In this document: positions 17,783 to 45,271 of the stretch, piece by piece | Layout: the number at the start of each line of letters is the position of its first letter | How positions within the stretch are numbered: position 1 is the first letter of the stretch | Virus record (IMG/VR): IMGVR_UViG_3300037247_000923 | Span: 1 to 50,931 of that record | Direction: 5' to 3' (one strand) | Source of the DNA: a virus | DNA: 50,931 nucleotides | The notes under the pieces: model-generated | Told to the model about the DNA's origin: nothing | Databases searched by the model: none | The model's input: only the letters and a program-made list of their open reading frames with translations | Position numbers and translations under genes: made by a program

Positions 17783-18002
17783 CTTACTAGGGTACTAGAC
17801 GGGCGCCAGAGGGGTTAACGCCTTTGGTAGTATGGGCTTAAAAAATCTTCACTATTTTCAATATGTCGGTACCTTGGTACCCTAGTATCCTAGATAGGGC
17901 CTTTTTATTTTCGAGTCGGCTCCCACCCAATCCTTCCTCGGGCGTATTGTGGTCCCCGGGCCCCCCTGGGGCCTCCTTCCTCAAAATTACCCTCCCGGCC
18001 CC

Positions 18003-18065
18003 CTAGGTGCTAGGGGCTAGGTGCTAGTCCCCAGATACTAGGTGCTTCGCTAGGCTCTAGGTGCT
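18003..18065. repeat. Four copies of CTAGGTGCT
   Basis: Copies start at 18003, 18017, 18038 and 18057. The first two extend to CTAGGTGCTAG. Spacing is irregular (14, 21 and 19 bases), which suggests binding sites rather than slippage-generated tandem copies. Confidence 0.8.
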
Positions 18066-18075
18066 CGTTGTCGAG

Positions 18076-18110
18076 GGTCTAGGGTCTATGGTCTATGGTC
18101 TATGGTTATT
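18076..18110. repeat. 7-base tandem repeat GGTCTAT
   Basis: Five consecutive 7-mers: GGTCTAG, then GGTCTAT three times, then a degenerate GGTTATT. This is a microsatellite-like array that could vary in copy number. Confidence 0.85.
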
Positions 18111-18116
18111 AGTGGT

Positions 18117-18178
18117 CTAGTACCCTAGTGTATGGCACCTAGTACCCTAGTGTATGGCACCTAGTACCTAGCACCTAG
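18117..18178. repeat. 22-base tandem repeat, two exact copies plus a partial
   Basis: 18117-18138 and 18139-18160 are identical and begin CTAGTACCCTAG; 18161-18178 is a shortened third copy. Each unit contains the TAGTACCCTA core twice seen elsewhere in the control region. There are no spacers, so it is not a CRISPR array. Confidence 0.9.
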
Positions 18179-18210
18179 TTTTATAGCAGATACCCTATCA
18201 CACGTAGACC

Positions 18211-18298
18211 CCATGTTAGGATACTAGGTGTTACTAACTAGGGTACTAAGTATCACTAGTTAGGGTACTAGGTATTACTAATTAGGGTACCACGCTCC
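18211..18298. repeat. Second 22-base-period repeat with TTAGGGTACTA core
   Basis: Units start at about 18211 (diverged), 18233, 18255 and 18277, each carrying a form of AACTAGGGTACTAAGT/TTAGGGTACTAGGT. A 22-base period is close to two helical turns, so proteins bound to successive units would line up on one face. This is the reverse-complement motif of the array at 18117-18178. Confidence 0.8.
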
Positions 18299-18424
18299 CA
18301 ATAGTCCATAGTTCTGCCTTACCGTACCTTATCCGGTATAGTTAGGGCTCATTGTTCCCTAGTATCCTAGTATCCTGGTATCCTAGTATTAGGGTACTAT
18401 ACTCTACAATGCGCCCCCATATAT

Positions 18425-28455: not shown

Positions 28456-30850
28456 GCCAACCACCGCCGTATTCGTACTGGGGTCGCTGGACTACACGGC
28501 TGCCCACAAGGGCGATGCCCTGGCCGCTGGCACTCTGGACCTACTGGACGAGATTGCCAAGCGGGCCAATGTACAGGCTGCCGTGGTCTTTGCCATCCAG
28601 GACTCCAAGCATGCCGGAAAGAACAAGTCCAAGATCGGTATAAAGGCCATCCGCGAAGAGCGCGGCCGCGTAATCAGTGAGATTGAGAACGCCAAGCCCG
28701 ACTTCGTAATGTGTTTTGGGCCGGTGGCTACGGCCAGCGTGTTCGGCAAAGGCAATCTTGTTGAAGGGGAGCTACTGCGGAAGGCGCACTATCCATTCTC
28801 TCGTGTTGTGGACTTTGACGGAGGCGGAGAGAAGGGCGAGGGCATTGAGCTAAGCGGCCCGCCCGTCTATGTCACCTTCGGCATGGAGAACGTGCGCTGG
28901 AAGGCAGGTCTCCGGAAGTGGCTGGTGTTGGACGTTGAGGCTGCGGTGAATGGGTGGACGGATACGGAGTGGGGCGATTACGTCGTCCTACAGCCGGGTA
29001 CAAAGGAATGGAATCAGTTGCCGCATCCATGGTTATTCTGTGGTCTGGGCTGGGGCGCAGGCAAAACTTCCCCAAAGGTCATAGGCTATGACCTTGAGAC
29101 GTATCCCGGCCTGTCTCCGTGGGATAAGGACGCCCGTATTCGGATGGCCGTTATCTCAGATCAGGTTGGGCGTGCATGGATTGTACAGGCCACACAGGAC
29201 AGTCGGTTTCCGCAGTGGCTCTACGATCTGATTGAGGACCCAAATACTATTAAGGCCGGGTCCAATATCAAGTTCGACTATCGGTGGCACCGACGCTTCG
29301 GCCACAAGATAGTGAATATGTACGACACGTCAACGCATGAGCATATTATCGACGAGAGTAACTCGAAAAAGGACTTAAAATCATTAACGTTTCTCTACGT
29401 CGAAAAACTAGGCGACTACTCCAGGGAACAACGCGACATGGTACGCAGTCGCGGAGGCTGGGAGTTTGTCGAAGATCACGAAATGTATCAGTACGCGGGC
29501 GGGGATGGAGAGGCCAGCATTGGCACCTATCACGGCCAGCAGCCGCTATTGAAGGGCAAAGAACGCGCGGCCCGGTTGTTCCGCGATTTGTATGCCGTCT
29601 TGGCAGAGATGGAACACAACGGTGCCTGCATTTCGATGCCAACCAACCGGCACCTGCACGAGCTATATGAGACGAAGCTGCGGGGATTACGGGAGGAAAT
29701 CGTGCAGGTGCTTGGTCCTATCAATCTGAACTCACCGACCCAATTGGCGAAGGCCTTGCAGAAAGCTGTGCCGCAAGTAAACTTGGCACTGAAAGACTGG
29801 AAGATCGTGGTTGGAGATGGTGAAGATTTGGAGACAAGCACCAAGCGGGAGGTACTTGAGCGTGAGTCGCACAAGCATCCCATCCTGAAAAAGGTACTAG
29901 AGTTTCGGAGCTATAGGACTAGGCACTCGACATTCATTAAGAGCGTGTACGAGAAGTACGCCGTGGAACACTATGGGTCATACTTTATTCACCCAACGTT
30001 CCGAAGCGACGTAACAGAAACGTACCGGCTCTCGTCACAGAGGCCCAACGGCCAGAATATTCCGCGAAAGGATAATGACGATGCGGAGCTGACCATTAAG
30101 AAGCAGTTTGTCTCCCGATTTAAGGGGGGCGAAATTCTCGACGCCGACCAATCGCAGATTGAAATTCGGTATGCGGCATGGTTGAGCCAGGACCCCAAGA
30201 TGATAGCAGCCGTCGAGTCAGGTGAAGATATTCATACAGCCATGGCGGCAATCATGTTGGACAAGCCAACCAGAGAGGTTACGGAACAGGAGAGGCAGGA
30301 TTGTAAAGCGCGGACGTTCCTTATCCTATATGGCGGCGGAGCGCGCAAGTTGTCGGCTGACCTGAAAATCAGTCGTCGGCGGGCACAGCGAATGATTGAC
30401 GAATATTTCTTGACGTTTAGCGGGCTTAAGCGTTTCATAGACGAGACGCACCTTAAAGCCAGACGTAACCTTTCGGTTACAACGGCCTTTGGGTTTACTC
30501 GCAACTTCCTGCAGCCGGACCATTGGGATTCGCCGGAAGGCTGGACCATCCAACGGCAGGCGTTCAACACCTTGGTGCAGAACGGTGCTGCGTGCGTGAC
30601 CTATTGCTCAATGATATGGCTGCAACGACAACTCGAAAAAGAGTGCTTGCAATCAAAGCTGATCCTGCAAGTTCACGACTCCATAGTGGTAGATGTATAC
30701 CCCGGAGAGCGTGACCGCATTGCGGAATTAGTTACGGCCTCAATGGAAGGTGCCCGCTCTATTACAACAGAGTACGGCGTTGACCTCGATATACCCCTGC
30801 GCTGTGATGTACAGGTAGGGCCGAACTGGGGTGAACTCAGTGGATTATGA
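28448..30850 (+). CDS. Family A DNA polymerase with N-terminal UDG-like domain and 3'-5' exonuclease
   Basis: 800 residues from the ATG at 28448 (AGGAG eight bases upstream). Residues ~5-185 resemble a degenerate family-4-type uracil-DNA glycosylase fold: PDFVMCFGPVATASVFGKG and VYVTFGMENVRWKAGL in the expected order. Residues ~210-385 are the proofreading domain (D215-L-E217; SNIKFDYRW; YAGGDGEAS). The polymerase has motif A DADQSQIEIR (565-574), motif B KARTFLILYGGG, and motif C QVHDS (H743, D744). It is the replicative enzyme. The catalytic residues of UDGs are not evident, so that domain is probably structural. Confidence 0.93.
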   Translation: MPKPTTAVFVLGSLDYTAAHKGDALAAGTLDLLDEIAKRANVQAAVVFAIQDSKHAGKNKSKIGIKAIREERGRVISEIENAKPDFVMCFGPVATASVFGKGNLVEGELLRKAHYPFSRVVDFDGGGEKGEGIELSGPPVYVTFGMENVRWKAGLRKWLVLDVEAAVNGWTDTEWGDYVVLQPGTKEWNQLPHPWLFCGLGWGAGKTSPKVIGYDLETYPGLSPWDKDARIRMAVISDQVGRAWIVQATQDSRFPQWLYDLIEDPNTIKAGSNIKFDYRWHRRFGHKIVNMYDTSTHEHIIDESNSKKDLKSLTFLYVEKLGDYSREQRDMVRSRGGWEFVEDHEMYQYAGGDGEASIGTYHGQQPLLKGKERAARLFRDLYAVLAEMEHNGACISMPTNRHLHELYETKLRGLREEIVQVLGPINLNSPTQLAKALQKAVPQVNLALKDWKIVVGDGEDLETSTKREVLERESHKHPILKKVLEFRSYRTRHSTFIKSVYEKYAVEHYGSYFIHPTFRSDVTETYRLSSQRPNGQNIPRKDNDDAELTIKKQFVSRFKGGEILDADQSQIEIRYAAWLSQDPKMIAAVESGEDIHTAMAAIMLDKPTREVTEQERQDCKARTFLILYGGGARKLSADLKISRRRAQRMIDEYFLTFSGLKRFIDETHLKARRNLSVTTAFGFTRNFLQPDHWDSPEGWTIQRQAFNTLVQNGAACVTYCSMIWLQRQLEKECLQSKLILQVHDSIVVDVYPGERDRIAELVTASMEGARSITTEYGVDLDIPLRCDVQVGPNWGELSGL

Positions 30851-31208
30851 AATTTGTATGAAACTCAAAGAGGCCGGATTTGAGCAAGATAAAAACAGGG
30901 GGGAGACCGCCTATTGGTGCCGATGGGAAGAGGAAAGAACAGGAATGTATTTAGTACAATGTCAAGTACTTGGTCCCGCAAAAAGACATCCTCATTATAA
31001 AGTACTTGTACGTTGCCCTACGTTACATGAGTTAATTGAAGCATGTATAACTCTTGAAGAAGATGGCGATTTTCATCTGGAACATCTTAATCATAACCAA
31101 TGGGGAGCAGGTACCTGCAAACACGAAGGGTGGCTCAGAGCAAGTACAGCTGCTGAGGCTGTAGCTAAATTATGGATAAAACTCAATGAAATTCGGAAGG
31201 CTGCATAG
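30831..31208 (+). CDS. Small protein after the polymerase, unrecognised
   Basis: 125 residues from a GTG at 30831 that overlaps the polymerase end; GTG 30840 or ATG 30858 are alternatives, and none has a strong ribosome site. Contains ETAYWCRWEEERTGMYLVQC and a C-terminal helix (AEAVAKLWIKLNEIRKAA). The function is unknown. Confidence 0.55.
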   Translation: MNSVDYEICMKLKEAGFEQDKNRGETAYWCRWEEERTGMYLVQCQVLGPAKRHPHYKVLVRCPTLHELIEACITLEEDGDFHLEHLNHNQWGAGTCKHEGWLRASTAAEAVAKLWIKLNEIRKAA

Positions 31209-31389
31209 AGAACCAGAGCTAATAACTTGTGCAGAATGTGGCGGTGATAAGTTTCAAATCGTCTTAAGTTTTTTCGTTTCGATCATCGGTTTCCGATGTA
31301 CGACGAAGGGCTGCAAGAACTTCATCCCAATTGAAGTGGTGAAGCCACCTGATAGCCCTCACCTTAACAATGGAGGTACCCCGCTATGA
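31186..31389 (+). CDS. Zinc-ribbon protein upstream of the ssDNA-binding protein
   Basis: 67 residues; CAECGGDKF and CTTKGCKNF make a four-cysteine ribbon around a hydrophobic segment (IVLSFFVSIIGF). It overlaps both neighbours by a few codons. Confidence 0.55.
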   Translation: MKFGRLHREPELITCAECGGDKFQIVLSFFVSIIGFRCTTKGCKNFIPIEVVKPPDSPHLNNGGTPL

Positions 31390-32144
31390 GTGGAGGTATT
31401 GACAGGACACAAGTGTTCCGCCCCAATATCAAGGCGAACACCGAGTCCACGAAGTTAGATAACTTGTTTGTGGATGTGCCGAAGGACGCTACAGTACGTG
31501 TGCGAATTTTGCCTATCCTGAGTGAGTCCAGTCTTATCTTTGTACGTGCCGAGCAGCACTACAAGATGAAGGCTACAACCGGCCGCGGTACGGCCCTTGC
31601 CTGCCTGAAAACCCATGGCACTGATGATACCGGCGACAACTGTTACCTGTGTGATTTGTCGCGGGTACTGGTCCGAGAGGGTGACGCAGCTGAGGTCCTG
31701 ATAGGCAAGGACATTTCTGTTTCTCCACGATGGTACACTCAAGTACTGCTGGCTGAGGAAGTCGGCCGTGACGAGAAGAACAAGCCGATTCTCAAGTACA
31801 ACGGCCCAAAGTTGCTCGGCCTGCCCAAGACCGGGGCCGATGGCGTCAACACGATTCTGAATAATATGGACGTGGCGGGTACACCGCTGTTCACAGAAAT
31901 CGACGATGGGCAGGATTTGCTTATTACTAGACACTCGGCTAGTCCATGGTACACAGTAGATCGTACTGGTATCGAAACCTCATTGGACGATATCTTCCCT
32001 GACTGGGAAAAGAAGATCATGCCCGATGTATACGCCGAGCTGGGCCTCAAGGTTGTTACGCGCGAAGAGCAGAAACAAGCTGCCATGCGTGCGTTCGGTG
32101 ACGAACTGGACTGGGTGGCCCTTGCGGAAGCGCATGGGCTTTAA
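31386..32144 (+). CDS. gp32-like single-stranded DNA-binding protein
   Basis: 252 residues. The pattern VPKDATVRVRILPILSES, then a zinc-type cluster in ALACLKTHG...NCYLCDLSR, then a beta-barrel body matches T4 gp32-like OB-fold proteins. The acidic C-terminal third would contact replication partners. It protects ssDNA in replication and recombination. It is paired here with a T7-like polymerase, so the replisome is mosaic. The ATG is preceded by GGAGGTACCCC. Confidence 0.7.
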   Translation: MSGGIDRTQVFRPNIKANTESTKLDNLFVDVPKDATVRVRILPILSESSLIFVRAEQHYKMKATTGRGTALACLKTHGTDDTGDNCYLCDLSRVLVREGDAAEVLIGKDISVSPRWYTQVLLAEEVGRDEKNKPILKYNGPKLLGLPKTGADGVNTILNNMDVAGTPLFTEIDDGQDLLITRHSASPWYTVDRTGIETSLDDIFPDWEKKIMPDVYAELGLKVVTREEQKQAAMRAFGDELDWVALAEAHGL

Positions 32145-32156
32145 GTAGACCGCAGG

Positions 32157-32345
32157 AAGGGGAGAGCGTTCAGGGATTTGCGCTTTACCCCGTGCGGGGC
32201 ACGACTGGTATAGCAGGTGAGACTTCGGTGGGGTAGGTGCAAGGCTTATACCCGTAGCCTACCCGACGAACAGCCCACACGCCAGTACGTTTCCGAGGAT
32301 CGTTGGCTGCGCCGGAGGCGTAGACAATCTGGCTCGTGCCCTGAC
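32157..32345 (+). ncRNA. Strongly structured non-coding RNA candidate
   Basis: The 219-base gap 32145-32363 has no credible frame but dense base-pairing. Stem A: GGGGAGAGCG (32159-32168) with CGCTTTACCCC (32181-32191), ten pairs and one bulged A. Stem B closes the rest: GGGCACGA (32197-32204) with TCGTGCCC (32334-32341), perfect over 130 bases. Inside, stem C GGGTAGG (32231-32237) with CCTACCC (32258-32264), with an alternative inner GGCT/AGCC pair; stem D CGCC-GGA-GGCG (32310-32320). It may be a free RNA or a leader element for the genes at 32364 onward. It matches no riboswitch or ribozyme I know. Confidence 0.65.
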
Positions 32346-32363
32346 TTCTTTAGGAGAACCTAC

Positions 32364-32642
32364 ATGAGTATTATTGAGATGGCAAAGTTAATGGACAAGA
32401 ATACCGCCCTCACGGAGCGCGTGCTGGAGTTGGAGCGGCAAGTTGATGAATTGGGCGATTCGTTTGGCGCTGACGTTACCGCTCTAATTGATTCCGCTGT
32501 AAAAACGGCCTTGACTGTCGAACGCGCCCGCGTCAAGCCGCTTGTGGAGGCGGTGCGGGAAGCACTAGCAATGAACGACGAAGCACACCGAACATCGTTA
32601 AGACGCGCCTTTGCCAAGTACGAGGAAGGGGCAAATCTATGA
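32364..32642 (+). CDS. Small coiled-coil protein before the RecB-like nuclease
   Basis: 92 residues; ATG at 32364 with TAGGAGA upstream (the open frame extends further 5' but only through the structured RNA). Helical with leucine heptads (NTALTERVLELERQVDELGD). The stop overlaps the nuclease start. No function is assigned. Confidence 0.6.
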   Translation: MSIIEMAKLMDKNTALTERVLELERQVDELGDSFGADVTALIDSAVKTALTVERARVKPLVEAVREALAMNDEAHRTSLRRAFAKYEEGANL

Positions 32643-33586
32643 CCCAATCAATTAAAGACCCCGTTCAAGCCCTGTACGACAACATGGAAGAACATGGGAT
32701 AGACATAGCCCGCGCACACCGGAATCCTGTTCAACGGTTCCGGGCTAGTGAAGCGGCCAACTGCCTTCGGCAGACTTGGTATCGGCTGTCCGGCTATCGC
32801 CCCGCACCCCGCGACGGCAACGGCCAGATATACGGTATCTGTGGAGATATAGACCACGACGTAACCCGACAGCTGTTTGAGAATTTTGGAGTAGAGATCG
32901 GCGGCGTACAGTATAACGATGATGGATCTGTCAAAGAACAGCTCTTTTTTACTGAGGAGTTTTCTGTAGAAACTCCGGCCGGTACCATCGAAGTTGTCTT
33001 GTCAACACGCGCAGACGGGGAGATTGACACGCCCCGTGGCAAGTCAGCTCTGCTTGAAATCAAAGGCAAGGGCTACTGGGTATTCGACTGGTTGCAGAAG
33101 GCCTTCACGCTGGGCTTCCGGAGCGCCGAACACGGGCAGATGGAAGCAGGCCATGAGGCCATGCTGCAGCGGGTTAAGGAAAAGGACAAGAACAGCTATT
33201 GGCAGACGCAAGTCACCATGAAGCTGTCAAAGAAAGATATCTGCTACCTACTCTACAAGGACCGCAGCAGCGGCCAGCTGGGAGTAGTGAACGACGAAAC
33301 AGGGGAACGGTCCGGTGTTTATGTAGAGTTTGACCCGGAGCTATTCCAGACAATTTTGGAAAGGTTTGCCTTTATCAAGCGCAAGCTAATGGAGGGCAAG
33401 CCGCCCGCGCCTGAGTTTTCGGCGGGCTCAAAAGAGTGCTCGTACTGTCCCTTTAACTATATGTGTCACGGTGCCGAAGAACGCCGAGTCAAGGGACTCA
33501 AGCCGGTAGTTCTGTACCCTGGCCCGCAGATGGAGATTCACTTGGAGGACAAAAATGACGACGACTACCAGGAAGAGCCGAACTAA
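32639..33586 (+). CDS. Cas4/RecB-like PD-(D/E)xK exonuclease with iron-sulfur cysteines
   Basis: 315 residues. C42 (RASEAANCLRQ) and C267, C270, C276 (CSYCPFNYMC) form the four-cysteine 4Fe-4S set of Cas4/AddB nucleases. The core holds D126/D130 (RADGEID), E140-x-K142 (LEIKG) and Q189 (YWQTQVTMKL). It resects DNA ends in recombination or degrades host DNA. There is no CRISPR array or cas gene nearby. The next gene starts inside its last codons. Confidence 0.85.
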   Translation: MTQSIKDPVQALYDNMEEHGIDIARAHRNPVQRFRASEAANCLRQTWYRLSGYRPAPRDGNGQIYGICGDIDHDVTRQLFENFGVEIGGVQYNDDGSVKEQLFFTEEFSVETPAGTIEVVLSTRADGEIDTPRGKSALLEIKGKGYWVFDWLQKAFTLGFRSAEHGQMEAGHEAMLQRVKEKDKNSYWQTQVTMKLSKKDICYLLYKDRSSGQLGVVNDETGERSGVYVEFDPELFQTILERFAFIKRKLMEGKPPAPEFSAGSKECSYCPFNYMCHGAEERRVKGLKPVVLYPGPQMEIHLEDKNDDDYQEEPN

Positions 33587-34019
33587 AGTTTATCTTGCCG
33601 GTCCTATGCGCGGGATACCGAATCACAATTTCCCCACCTTCTATAAAGCAGCAGCTATGCTTGAGATGTGGGGCTATGAAGTTGTGAATCCGGCCCGCTT
33701 GGACCTTGTGGAGAAACGAGCTGAGTTTAACTGGAATTTGCAGGAAGTTATTTTGGACAATAGTTTCACGATGGAGGACGCCTTGGCTAGAGACTACGAC
33801 GAAATTCGTACATGCGATGCTATCGTTTTACTTCCTGGCTGGCATGCTAGCCTAGGGGCGAGTAGAGAGATCGCGTTTGCGTCAAGTCGTGGGATTCCGT
33901 GTTACTCGTACTTTGAGGAAAGTCCGCTGAGTATGAGAAACCAGAAACCACTGACTATCACGGTAGAGGTGCTATGTAAAGTAGCTGAGGAAGGATGGGT
34001 AGCGAGTGAGAAAGTTTGA
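33555..34019 (+). CDS. DUF4406 / nucleoside deoxyribosyltransferase-like protein
   Basis: 154 residues. KVYLAGPMRGIPNHNFPTFY at the start and CDAIVLLPGWHASLGASREI later are the hallmark of DUF4406, a Rossmann-like relative of nucleoside 2-deoxyribosyltransferases. Probably acts in nucleotide salvage or base handling. GGAGG lies before the ATG. It overlaps the nuclease by 32 bases and is followed by a DUF5664 gene, a common phage pairing. Confidence 0.8.
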   Translation: MTTTTRKSRTKVYLAGPMRGIPNHNFPTFYKAAAMLEMWGYEVVNPARLDLVEKRAEFNWNLQEVILDNSFTMEDALARDYDEIRTCDAIVLLPGWHASLGASREIAFASSRGIPCYSYFEESPLSMRNQKPLTITVEVLCKVAEEGWVASEKV

Positions 34020-34428
34020 GACAGGGGCGACTAGAGATACGGAGGACGGTAAGCTGGACTATGAAGGCTTTTTATCCCCGACTGTTCTACAGGCGTATGC
34101 TGAGTATATGCACCAAAACCGAGTACAAGCAGACGGTAATCTGCGAGACTCAGACAACTGGCAAAAGGGTATCCCCATGTCGGCGTACATGAAGTCTGCG
34201 TTCAGGCATTTTATTGATTGGTGGACTTCCTATCGGAGGGGCACTCCCAATAAGGACGCGGCCTTGGCGCTGCTGTTTAATGTGATGGGCTTTCTGCATG
34301 AACAGGTCAGTTCCTCAACTCCATTAACGAATGATATTGTATGGATTGGTGCGGCTGAGTACAGAAAACTAAAAAAGAAGGGGCTTATTATAGATGGACC
34401 AGCAGCTAAAACGGATGATGCCTTATAG
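34006..34428 (+). CDS. DUF5664 protein (dATP/dGTP diphosphohydrolase N-terminal family)
   Basis: 140 residues from a GTG start overlapping the previous gene. RKFETGATRDTEDGKLDYEG, DNWQKGIPMSAYMKSAFRHF and ALALLFNVMGFLHEQ are typical of DUF5664, the family that includes the phiVC8-type dATP/dGTP pyrophosphohydrolase. It would remove dNTPs or shift pool balance. No PurZ-like or DatZ-like gene was found, so 2-aminoadenine DNA is not supported. Confidence 0.7.
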   Translation: MRKFETGATRDTEDGKLDYEGFLSPTVLQAYAEYMHQNRVQADGNLRDSDNWQKGIPMSAYMKSAFRHFIDWWTSYRRGTPNKDAALALLFNVMGFLHEQVSSSTPLTNDIVWIGAAEYRKLKKKGLIIDGPAAKTDDAL

Positions 34429-40746: not shown

Positions 40747-40946
40747 TACGGACCACCTGCGAAGAACATTTTAACCTTAGTCAGCAGGACTATAGCCGTC
40801 GCACTGAGCGCCCCTATGAATCCCGACTTCACTTCTACACGGGCCAGTCGACGATCAATGCGCTTTACGTCTTGTCGTGTCTCTACGATTTCGTCATAGA
40901 GCAGACGTTCGACACTGCTGAGATCGTCTGGATGTGCTTTCCTCAT
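40746..40946 (-). CDS. Holin-like protein with C-terminal membrane segment
   Basis: 66 residues: an N-terminal coiled coil (LLYDEIVETRQDVKRIDRRL) and one C-terminal membrane helix (FIGALSATAIVLLTKVKMFF). The layout resembles XhlA-type haemolysin/holin partners. Coupled by TAATG on both sides, directly before the endolysin. Confidence 0.6.
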   Translation of the reverse strand: MRKAHPDDLSSVERLLYDEIVETRQDVKRIDRRLARVEVKSGFIGALSATAIVLLTKVKMFFAGGP

Positions 40947-43900
40947 TATGGCTCCAATCCTATTCCCCGCTCTTGAATGATGCGCATGTATTCATCAATC
41001 AATTGCGGGTCGTGCTGTATGGCCCGCAGCATGTATGAAATATCGCGCGCTGACATGGCTTTCTCAATTCCCTTAGTGCCCGTGATGCGGACTCTATATG
41101 TGTTGGTCAACTCGGCTATGGCCTCGTCTACCTTCTTTTGGTTGTTGTCCTCTATGCCGTCGATTAGTTTCTGTGTAGCAACTCGCATATTGAAGTAGAA
41201 CTTTTGGCGCGTGCGTGTGATTGCCTTCTGGCCACCGCGAAAGATTTTATCTCGGATAGCTTGCTGCCCAAAAACAGTCGGTAGGAAGTCGCCGCCCAAT
41301 CCGGGCGCTGGCTCTCCCTCAATACCCTCTCCGGGCCGTATGGACTCACCTAGTCCTTGAAGAACTTGCTGCGGTGAATCGCCGGGCATGGGAAAGGTCG
41401 TTGCAAAGTCTAAGGGCCGAAGCCTTTCGCCGGTTCGCGTGACTTGTGCGCGCTTTTCAAGACGCTCAGCGGCTTTAGTCGCAGTACTGAAAGCAACAAA
41501 CATGGGGAGCAGGGTATCCAGCGCACCCAAGTAGGCCTCTGTAGCCCGCGATACCCGCTCGGGGTCACGGTCGCTGAGTGCCTGCATGAGGTCCATGCTC
41601 TTAATAAAGGCATCGACAGCTGGGGCTGAAACGTCTCGTGGTTCCTTGGGAATAAAGCCGAGTCCAACGTAATCAGTTACGTCAATACCCATTTCCTCCG
41701 CAGCGATCCGCGATATCCAACCTGAAACAGCCAGATAGGTTACGATATTACCCGGATTGCGGGTGAACTGAAACGCCAGTTCCTCAATCTGCTTTGGAAT
41801 AAAGCTAAGAAACTGAGTCGCTGCAACAGCTACCCCTTTCGATTGGAATATCGTTCGAGTAACCCATGGGCTTCTGCCCGCCGCTCCGAACATATGATTA
41901 ACTTCTTCGGCCGAACGCAGGGCTTCAAAGGCGATTCGCCGTTGAAACTTGGACCCTGACGCTACCACTTCATTCCACGATGAAAACCCAAACCGTGCTG
42001 CATGAACATCTACCGCCGCCATGGCAGTAGCTCCACGAATAAGTTCCTCCGTGGTAGCGGTTGAATGGATGCCAAGCGGGCTAACGGTGTAGCCATGCTT
42101 AGCAATAAAGGTGGAAAAGCGTCGAAAGAAGTCAGACTCAAAAATGTCGAGAAACGTATCGTATGTTCCTATCTGCTTGTTAAGAGCCTGCCCCTCAAGT
42201 GTTGCCATCTCAAATAAGCCGCGGGCTGTACGAAGCATCCCGAAACGCCCAGCGGATGTAGCAAGGCCGGTCGCAATCTGCATAACAGGGTAACGTGGAT
42301 TTCCCGGCAATGCTCCGGCCCACAAAAGACCAGACATACCTATGAGTGCTCTGTCCCATACCTGCGGAACCCAGCGCCGTGTACCGTCCTTATTGATGGC
42401 TGCACCAATCATCTCGTCAATTCGGTGGCCGAGCGGTGTTGGCTTGCCCTGCATGGTGGAAACCAGATCGTTCATGTAGGTTTGAAATGTTGGGTTCTTC
42501 CACCTAGCGGACATTTCTGCGCCCGTTTGGATCATGTCGTCGAAGAGCGGCTCCATAATACGTTTTCTGTTGAAGGCCCGCCCATAGAGGTCCAGCGCCA
42601 ACATAGCATCTCTCTGGTAGCCCTGTGCCCCTGTCCGGCTAAGTAAGTGACTGGCAAATACCTCTGCCTTCGCCGGAAGGCCAATGTACTCTAAGGGCCG
42701 CGCCCCGCCCGAGAACTGTGAGTGGTCGAATACGTGGCGAATGTAGCCCGTCAAGTAGCGCGGTGTATCTGTCAAGCCCTGTAGATTTGCCACATGGTCC
42801 AACAGTTTCCGAATCTGATCGTGAAATTTCATCAGTTCAGGGGTTGCCTTGGCGGAGGCCTCTACAAATTCTTCGCTTCCAACCTCACTGTCGAGTAAGT
42901 CAAATAGGATTCGATTCTTTTCCGGGTCAACCTTATATGGCGCAAAAGATTTCTTTGGGTTCCAATTGGTTCGGTTACGAATAACCCCGGCCTTCTCGGC
43001 GCCGTCTAGAATCTGATCGTACCAGACCCGAGTTTCCTGGTTATAGCGCAGGGTTTGGCTGCGGAATCTCTCCCACGCACCGGGCGAATAGGTTTCCAGG
43101 AATCGCTGTGGCTCTCGAAAGAGTTGAAACGTTTGGACTCCGCCGCGTTGGAGGATGAAGTCGGAATCTAAGATTCCACCACCCGGATACAGCGACCGAA
43201 TCATACGGTCATGTGCTGTAGACATCCAGCTATTAAGGCGTGCTGGCGTGCTCATAACCCCTTCGTCATGTGTGGGTGCCCAGATATCGTCGAACTTACG
43301 CGTCTTATCTGTAAACTTGCCCATTTTGCTAAGAGAAATTTGGTGCTTCTTAAGCGTGTTCAGTACTGCCTCTTGTACGTTGATGACCGCCTTGTCGCCC
43401 AACTCCCGGACCTTGCCGAGTTGCTTCTTGGCGACGAAGATGTGGTTGTCAAGCATCGTGGCCGTGCTGTTGAACAGTTCATCCCGTGACTTCTCGACAA
43501 CGCGTGCCGCTAGGGCAGCCTCGACAGCCTTGTTTGTTTTCTGAACCTGTCGCCAGTTAATCAAGGCCATTTGTGACTGAGGCAGGCCGCCGTATTCTGG
43601 CGTCATCGGGTAAACGTAAATATCGTCAACAGACGGAGCACCGGCACGAGCCATTAGATTGAGTCCATCACCTGCTGCCTCCGCATCATCTGGCCCCATA
43701 AGCTGTCGCCGCTGGAAGAGCGGCAGATCGTCAACGTTATTCCAATCCACCGGATTGTCCATTTCACGGAGCAGTTCCTTCTTGCGAAGCTCATGCATCT
43801 CTTTGGCGATGTCGTCCATATTAACCCTACGCGTAAAGCCCTCTTCCGGCGATACATCATCAAGATAACGTCTGGTCGTTGATAGATCAGGTAACTCGTC

Positions 43901-45271
43901 CGGGTGTCGGCGGGCTGTGCGGAGCATAATAATATTGTGTGGTCCGGCATCCGCGAATTGGTCAAGCCACTTTGTCTCGACTAATAGTTGTTTACGAGCT
44001 GCAACCAGTTTTCGAGCCGATACATCGGAGATCAGGGCTTCCCCTGTTGCTGCGCGCGCTGTTTCTATTTCGGCCTGCAGACCGGCTTCAACGTGTTTCA
44101 AATTCTTGTTGGCGGCGTCCCATGCAACCTTGGCATCCTCAAATCGGTAGGTCTTTCTTGCAATATCACCAAGAACGGTAGCCGTTTTACCGGGAGAAAC
44201 ACGTGCTGCCCCTTTACGGAGTAGACTCGGAATCCTTGCAGGTAAGCCGCCAACTAGCATTAACACGTCAGCAACTACCTCAGAGGCGGCATCGGCAAAT
44301 GCCATGTGGGCCATAACGGCGTTACCCTGATTGCCCATATCGTATAGGGTTTTATAGGTATCGTCCATGTCCACACCGGCTGCCTCCCAATTCGACTCAA
44401 TGACTTCTTGCCACGACAGGTTTTCTCCGAGCGAGGCTATCAGTGGAACCGCTTGCCCTTTGGCCGCTTCAATTTGCTTAATCCCGGCAACGCCCAATGC
44501 GGGTGCTCTAAGGAATTGTCCGGCCCAGAATTTGCTAAGACCAATGGCACGCTCTTTAAGTAGGTGCAGCGCAGCGGTAGTACCAAGGCTGAATTCTTTA
44601 TCCCCGTCTAGTCGAATTTTAGGAAGAACGCGTTGTTCAATGTCGGCGCGCTGAGACTTCGGTACTGCTAATAGGCGGACCCTCTTGTTGGCCCATGAGG
44701 CAAAGTCCAGCAGGGAGAGGCCCATGCTGACATTGATGGCGCCTTCATTTAGTACATCGCCCGTGGAATTTCCGATTTTACGGAGGCCTCGCTGCCACCA
44801 TTTTCGGGCTTCGGCGGCTTTGGCTACGTTACCTGCACCCCACCTATTCACCATCTCAAAGAGAGCGTCGAGATTCTCTCCATCGGCGGCTAGGCCTTCC
44901 TCCTTGAACTGCTGCGACAGACGCAGAACCAGCTCAGCCCCTTCTTTGTTCTGATCGAAAATAGGGCTAATGGTTTCATACATCTTGCCCAAATCGAGGT
45001 CGGCTATCTCTTGCGTGCTATCAGTGGTCAACGCAGAACGCACTGTTTCCGGAGAAAATCCCGCAGCTTCTAGGGCCATCCGACTTTCCCGAAGAAGTTG
45101 CTCAATGTCTTTTGCACCGGTATCTTTGACTTCGGTTTGTGGCGCATGTTCACGCAGCTGTCCGGCGTTCTTGGTGGCTATAGCGCGAATGGAATCGCGT
45201 TCTGCTTCCGTGATGCCTACTTGCAGCTGTTCTTTCGCGCGTGCTTTAAGTTTGTCTCGTAAGGACGCCAT
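40946..45271 (-). CDS. Giant internal virion (ejection) protein
   Basis: 1441 residues, comparable to T7 gp16 (1318). Mostly helical with charged N-terminus (MASLRDKLKARAKEQLQVGI). Position, the last and largest of three genes between tailspike and lysis, is that of ejected core proteins which extend the short tail through the cell envelope. I see no clear transglycosylase motif (T7 gp16 has one). GGAC close to the ATG gives a modest ribosome site. Confidence 0.75.
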   Translation of the reverse strand: MASLRDKLKARAKEQLQVGITEAERDSIRAIATKNAGQLREHAPQTEVKDTGAKDIEQLLRESRMALEAAGFSPETVRSALTTDSTQEIADLDLGKMYETISPIFDQNKEGAELVLRLSQQFKEEGLAADGENLDALFEMVNRWGAGNVAKAAEARKWWQRGLRKIGNSTGDVLNEGAINVSMGLSLLDFASWANKRVRLLAVPKSQRADIEQRVLPKIRLDGDKEFSLGTTAALHLLKERAIGLSKFWAGQFLRAPALGVAGIKQIEAAKGQAVPLIASLGENLSWQEVIESNWEAAGVDMDDTYKTLYDMGNQGNAVMAHMAFADAASEVVADVLMLVGGLPARIPSLLRKGAARVSPGKTATVLGDIARKTYRFEDAKVAWDAANKNLKHVEAGLQAEIETARAATGEALISDVSARKLVAARKQLLVETKWLDQFADAGPHNIIMLRTARRHPDELPDLSTTRRYLDDVSPEEGFTRRVNMDDIAKEMHELRKKELLREMDNPVDWNNVDDLPLFQRRQLMGPDDAEAAGDGLNLMARAGAPSVDDIYVYPMTPEYGGLPQSQMALINWRQVQKTNKAVEAALAARVVEKSRDELFNSTATMLDNHIFVAKKQLGKVRELGDKAVINVQEAVLNTLKKHQISLSKMGKFTDKTRKFDDIWAPTHDEGVMSTPARLNSWMSTAHDRMIRSLYPGGGILDSDFILQRGGVQTFQLFREPQRFLETYSPGAWERFRSQTLRYNQETRVWYDQILDGAEKAGVIRNRTNWNPKKSFAPYKVDPEKNRILFDLLDSEVGSEEFVEASAKATPELMKFHDQIRKLLDHVANLQGLTDTPRYLTGYIRHVFDHSQFSGGARPLEYIGLPAKAEVFASHLLSRTGAQGYQRDAMLALDLYGRAFNRKRIMEPLFDDMIQTGAEMSARWKNPTFQTYMNDLVSTMQGKPTPLGHRIDEMIGAAINKDGTRRWVPQVWDRALIGMSGLLWAGALPGNPRYPVMQIATGLATSAGRFGMLRTARGLFEMATLEGQALNKQIGTYDTFLDIFESDFFRRFSTFIAKHGYTVSPLGIHSTATTEELIRGATAMAAVDVHAARFGFSSWNEVVASGSKFQRRIAFEALRSAEEVNHMFGAAGRSPWVTRTIFQSKGVAVAATQFLSFIPKQIEELAFQFTRNPGNIVTYLAVSGWISRIAAEEMGIDVTDYVGLGFIPKEPRDVSAPAVDAFIKSMDLMQALSDRDPERVSRATEAYLGALDTLLPMFVAFSTATKAAERLEKRAQVTRTGERLRPLDFATTFPMPGDSPQQVLQGLGESIRPGEGIEGEPAPGLGGDFLPTVFGQQAIRDKIFRGGQKAITRTRQKFYFNMRVATQKLIDGIEDNNQKKVDEAIAELTNTYRVRITGTKGIEKAMSARDISYMLRAIQHDPQLIDEYMRIIQERGIGLEP

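Follow-up and report, generated by a model that had tools for sequence, protein, structure and literature searches.

Predicted RNA structures 3' of gp32-like ssb genes in an uncultivated phage and its relatives

The replication locus and its intercistronic gap

The stretch of DNA that we analysed, hereafter called the window, comprises 50,931 nt of the IMG/VR virus record IMGVR_UViG_3300037247_000923. On its + strand, close to primase, polymerase and helicase genes, a gene for a T4 gp32-like single-stranded DNA-binding protein (ssb; 31386..32144) is followed by an intercistronic gap of 219 bases (32145..32363), by a gene for a predicted coiled-coil protein of 92 residues (32364..32642) and by a gene for a Cas4/RecB-like nuclease (cas4; 32639..33586; phrog_1990, E 2.9e-13). 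The ssb and cas4 genes are the upstream and downstream anchors of this junction in the relatives. All 11 aligned ssb members match phrog_1192, and nine of the 11 also match the Pfam gp32 family (PF08804; best E 1.9e-13). The window's own ssb protein is without a Pfam match, and the best PDB profile matches for ssb, which are weak (E 0.0085), correspond to gp32. As judged from these profiles, the protein encoded upstream of the gap is of the T4 gp32 kind. The gene after the gap starts with an ATG at 32364, preceded by its own Shine-Dalgarno sequence, AGGAG; its product has no tblastn match in any relative found and no significant match in phages. Two other small genes (125 and 67 aa; 30831-31389) lie between the polymerase and ssb genes of the window and have no match in the relatives, the nearest of which have polymerase and ssb adjacent to each other. 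Further along the window, a 1441-aa protein (40946-45271) has no PHROG match.

The first-pass annotation had described the gap as devoid of reading frames, in a genome that otherwise overlaps its genes. Codon use is indeed non-coding in every frame of the gap, which rules out hidden coding. However, one frame is open from GTG 32217 and continues into the downstream gene, with a codon-use score of -0.17 versus +0.41 for the 92-residue gene. Other non-coding stretches do exist in the genome, notably at 17.5-18.6 kb. There, a non-coding region of 380 bases (17940-18320) contains inverted and tandem CTAG-rich repeats, with units such as CTAGTACCCTAGTGTATGGCAC and TTAGGGTACTAGGTATTACTAA, and is predicted to form a single giant hairpin (-158.7 kcal/mol, z -4.6) that far exceeds the region behind ssb in strength. 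Located between divergent gene blocks, it is possibly an origin, a terminator or a packaging-related element.

Folding of the ssb gap predicts a hairpin and a closed multi-branch structure. The hairpin, H1 (32159..32191), begins 14 nt past the ssb stop codon and comprises 10 pairs plus a U-G pair, with a bulged A at 32187; the 10 pairs and the bulge had been recognized in the first-pass annotation. The closing stem P0 joins CGGGGCACGA (32195..32204) to UCGUGCCCUG (32334..32343) in 10 pairs, including one G-U, and thus extends the 8-pair core (32197-32204 with 32334-32341) noticed earlier. Its pairs have predicted probabilities of 0.84-1.0, and the stem taken alone has a p value of 0.02 against shuffles. 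Folding also predicts the further stems said to be enclosed by it, which form two domains in the minimum-energy fold. Domain A (32217..32279) includes the stem GGGGUAGG (32230-32237)/CCUACCC (32258-32264), also an inverted repeat (I2), and domain B (32280..32333) is a long interrupted helix, GCCAGUACGUUUCCG ... CGGAGGCGUA-GACAAU-CUGGC. The motif CGAACAGCC (32267..32275) is located 3' of an inner hairpin. Alternative pairings, GUGGG/CCCAC locally and GUGCGGGGC/GCCCACACG distally, fall short of the main fold of the window by 8-11 kcal/mol and were rejected.

We measured the folding excess against 200 dinucleotide shuffles. The region as trimmed in the first-pass annotation (32157-32345) has a z-score of -2.54, with two of the 200 shuffles as good. 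For the untrimmed region (32140-32363), which that annotation had proposed to fold, the excess is present but modest (z -1.69; 11/200 shuffles as good), and the p value of the exact gap is 0.06. The element ranks 29th among the 2538 GC-corrected 189-nt windows of the genome (about the top 1%), a scan in which coding windows attain similar values, and 0.3% of the 150-nt + strand windows across the 19-38.5 kb stretch fold better than that of the element. The - RNA (z -1.76) and the DNA (z -1.44) of the trimmed region have smaller excesses than its + RNA. The structure exceeds chance, though the excess is modest.

As in the first-pass annotation, no known class was recognized. Its multi-stem layout in a non-coding gap resembles that of riboswitches, self-cleaving ribozymes and large ornate RNAs, but neither the window nor ten relatives match an Rfam 15 family at the gathering threshold. 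Matches below the threshold are at chance level (best in the window region, E 6), and no Rfam ribozyme matches the window region. We found no tRNA or tmRNA with the ARAGORN model, no intrinsic terminator (hairpin and U-run) on the + strand at 31900-32700 and no + strand promoter pattern within the gap. Tandem repeats as in type III toxin-antitoxin RNAs are absent from 32100-32400, which contains a single pair of direct repeats of chance length. An autoregulatory operator of the T4 gp32 type would lie 5' of the ssb start, over the ribosome site, whereas the element is 3' of ssb.

The ssb junction in related phages

Close relatives of the window were retrieved neither by DNA similarity searches of phages and plasmids nor by single-protein searches (ssb, cas4) of viral contigs, and a degenerate polymerase DNA motif yielded no relatives. 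A polymerase profile identified the loci L009 to L012 and L089, with polymerases 57-64% identical, a Cas4 start motif identified L101, and a helicase profile identified L122 to L124, L126 and L127. In prokaryote genomes, polymerase, helicase and Cas4 profiles gave one helicase relative, L196, on a contig of a Phycisphaerae MAG whose stretch does not reach its ssb junction, and otherwise nothing useful. The gene order ssb-cas4-helicase is kept in ten distinct relatives, in most of them with the polymerase gene upstream too; the L126 locus has no polymerase match. In a six-member alignment of near relatives, the cas4 products are 50-53% identical.

The gaps at the junction range from 0 to about 195 nt in the relatives. 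L010 and L126 have none, despite similar replication genes, and hence the element is dispensable. In L122, the junction harbours instead a PDDEXK_5 (PD-(D/E)XK) endonuclease gene (L122 4069-4524, E 7e-12), which suggests that the site between ssb and cas4 is an insertion hotspot. L009/L011, L012 and L101 each have one strong hairpin (z -3.9, -3.1 and -2.5, respectively) that starts 3-14 nt past the ssb stop codon; the sequences are unrelated, and in L009/L011 and L012 the hairpin extends to 1 nt ahead of the next Shine-Dalgarno sequence. The junctions of L089, L123, L124 and L127 comprise 146-195 nt with no coding signal and multi-stem folds like that of the window. Closing helices stand out in L089 (CGAUGGUGACA/UGUCACCAUUG; p 0.003 versus shuffles), L127 (AGGUAACUCU/AGAGUUGCCU), L123 (GGCUAGC/GCUAGUC) and L124 (GGCGGC/GCCGCC). 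Altogether, stem structures can be folded at eight of the 11 distinct junctions, including the window's, from unrelated sequences, with L127 weak against shuffles (whole gap, no folding excess, z +0.1). A stable structure lies on the coding strand between the upstream stop codon and the next Shine-Dalgarno sequence in the window (32159-32343), L009, L012, L101 and L089. This recurrence supports the initial claim that the replication operon contains an RNA element that is structured and non-coding. The gene after the junction varies, being the 92-residue gene in the window and a 68-aa ORF or cas4 itself elsewhere, and the upstream ssb is constant. The gp32-like ssb gene, left unnamed in the first-pass annotation, is a better anchor for the element than the downstream genes.

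The best 150-nt windows of the five long junctions are in the top 0.3% (window), 1.1% (L089), 0.1% (L123), 2.8% (L124) and 1.5% (L127) of their loci, ranks that are somewhat flattering, since only the top-scoring window of each gap was taken. In L009 and L012, no other 45-nt structure of the locus is stronger than the junction hairpin. Other gap-like segments of these loci, which are arbitrary and based on crude gene calls, average about z -0.9; the contrast between them and the junctions is real but moderate. The + (mRNA) strand is stabler than its complement at all eight junctions by energy and at seven of the eight by z-score. L089 departs from this pattern, with a z-score of -3.99 for the - strand.

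Candidate roles of the junction structures

The combination of a constant upstream gene, a variable downstream gene, a favoured + strand and a structure that is present in some relatives and absent from others, with free sequence turnover, fits an intercistronic mRNA element. Our preferred interpretation, to which we give slightly less than an even chance, is that the structure is such an element of the replication mRNA rather than a separate gene, and that it would guard or process the 3' end of ssb and insulate it from its low-dose neighbours. On what we presume to be a single mRNA, the RNA would fold into the hairpin and the closed multi-branch structure once the ribosome leaves the ssb cistron. 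The fold could protect the 3' end of an ssb message in heavy demand or determine the position at which a host RNase cuts, and it might separate the translation of ssb from that of the next, low-dose cistrons, each with its own Shine-Dalgarno sequence. Stability and position would count more than sequence, allowing quick drift, and the relatives accordingly range from a single hairpin to a multi-stem domain. As the junction evidently accepts cargo, the enlarged form of the window perhaps came with the 92-residue gene. A plain hairpin would suffice for the proposed job, and the interpretation leaves the larger size of the window element unexplained.

Polycistronic mRNAs of bacteria and phages carry intercistronic stem-loops that serve in stabilization or processing. 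The window element is similar to them in that it is a strong structure between a stop codon and the next Shine-Dalgarno sequence, with no U-run and a variable sequence, but it is far larger (~190 nt, closed multi-branch) than the usual hairpin. As for gp32 itself, an RNase E processing site is located near the stop codon of T4 gene 32, whose mRNA is unusually stable, and the translational operator of gene 32, a short pseudoknot, lies 5' of the gene (PMC3014915). Both systems concern an ssb cistron of the gp32 family. In contrast with the T4 operator, the window element is located 3', is longer and multi-branched, and is known from a predicted fold. T4 is a precedent for a gp32 message receiving special treatment, with a processing site at the gene's end, albeit through different parts. 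If the structure is indeed intercistronic, RNA structure is placed at the gp32-like ssb cistron in a second phage clade, one without relation to T4, and here at the 3' junction. Its position would be kept while its sequence fully turns over, providing a usable case for mRNA architecture setting the dosage of SSB.

The long junctions might alternatively encode a trans-acting or ligand-binding phage RNA of ~140-190 nt, cut from the mRNA to act on host or phage machinery, with a closed multi-branch fold in which a conserved CGAACA joins the last hairpin to the closing strand. We consider this unlikely, although that length, a 5' hairpin and a closing stem are common to the window, L089 and L124 and, less clearly, to L123 and L127. 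In the first three of these, CGAACA(A/G)CC stands at comparable places on the 3' side of a hairpin, and this shared joining motif hints at a true RNA family, in a suggestive manner only: sharing of CGAACA arises in 5-12% of shuffled sets (p about 0.05-0.12, not significant), and the window's lowest-energy fold puts it away from the closing stem. A hand-made GAACA descriptor was set aside as no proof alone, since arbitrary 5-mers trigger it in about 1% of cases. In structure-profile alignments, the L089-L124 pair scores better than 120 of 120 shuffles and is the only pair clearly above chance, but the sum over five sequences is marginal, seven of the 120 shuffle sets doing equally well. The junction sequences cannot be aligned among relatives, and no homologous sequence was found. 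Between 121 and 183 of 500 shuffles, depending on the scoring, are as good as the window-L089 pairwise alignment, and a match spotted by eye between these two, AGUAC-n6-GAGGAU-...-GGCUG, was lost against shuffles. Covariance models R1 and R2, built from the window or L089 and of limited power as single-sequence models, found none of the other members. The discrete free regulator that the first-pass annotation had envisaged also fits poorly with a gap that has no + strand promoter or terminator pattern and with the conservation of neither sequence nor shape. It is rather unlikely, in our estimation, that these structures represent a new, fast-diverging family of phage non-coding RNAs, closed and multi-branched with a CGAACA joining motif, that is located behind the gp32-like ssb of an uncultivated clade and acts beyond mRNA protection. 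Were the family real, about five diverged members would now be listed as starting points for searches.

The other role first proposed, a leader for the coiled-coil gene, does not hold as a general one, given that this gene is absent from relatives with structured junctions. In the window, a 5' leader could regulate the 92-residue gene and the operon beyond, for instance by attenuation or by binding a protein, perhaps the ssb product. The structure ends ~10 nt before the downstream Shine-Dalgarno sequence, T4 gp32 binds an mRNA structure (PMC3014915), and the RNA region of L124 likewise precedes a small unrelated ORF. However, the downstream gene differs between carriers whereas the upstream one is constant, the minimum-energy fold of the gap pairs the Shine-Dalgarno region at its edges only, no terminator/antiterminator pair is seen in the gap, and the T4 operator sits 5' of gene 32, not 3'; we find such a leader doubtful. 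It also appears improbable that gene turnover at an insertion-prone junction left the gap behind as a G+C-rich spacer, with stems largely due to chance. The cargo does differ among relatives (the PDDEXK_5 gene in L122, nothing in L010 and L126), and the small excess of the window over shuffles, with coding windows reaching similar values, is compatible with a spacer. Chance stems are harder to reconcile with the ranks of all five long junctions (top 0.1-2.8% of their loci), with the L009 and L012 hairpins being the best of theirs and with the p values of the closing stems in the window and L089. Finally, the multi-hairpin layout is of fitting size and adjoins ssb in a neighbourhood of primase, polymerase and helicase genes, which evokes a structure formed by single-stranded DNA, such as a site of the G4 or n'-pas type, at which replication is initiated or a primosome loaded. 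Such a site is highly improbable, as the folding excess is small for DNA, the + RNA sense folds better, and L010 and L126 lack the element despite similar replication genes.

Downstream of cas4, the window codes for a 140-aa protein (34006-34428) with an N-terminus that weakly resembles dGTP diphosphohydrolase, at a score under the Pfam cut-off. It is 62% identical in L127 and in L196, and its match in the Phycisphaerae MAG is a possible clue to the host range.
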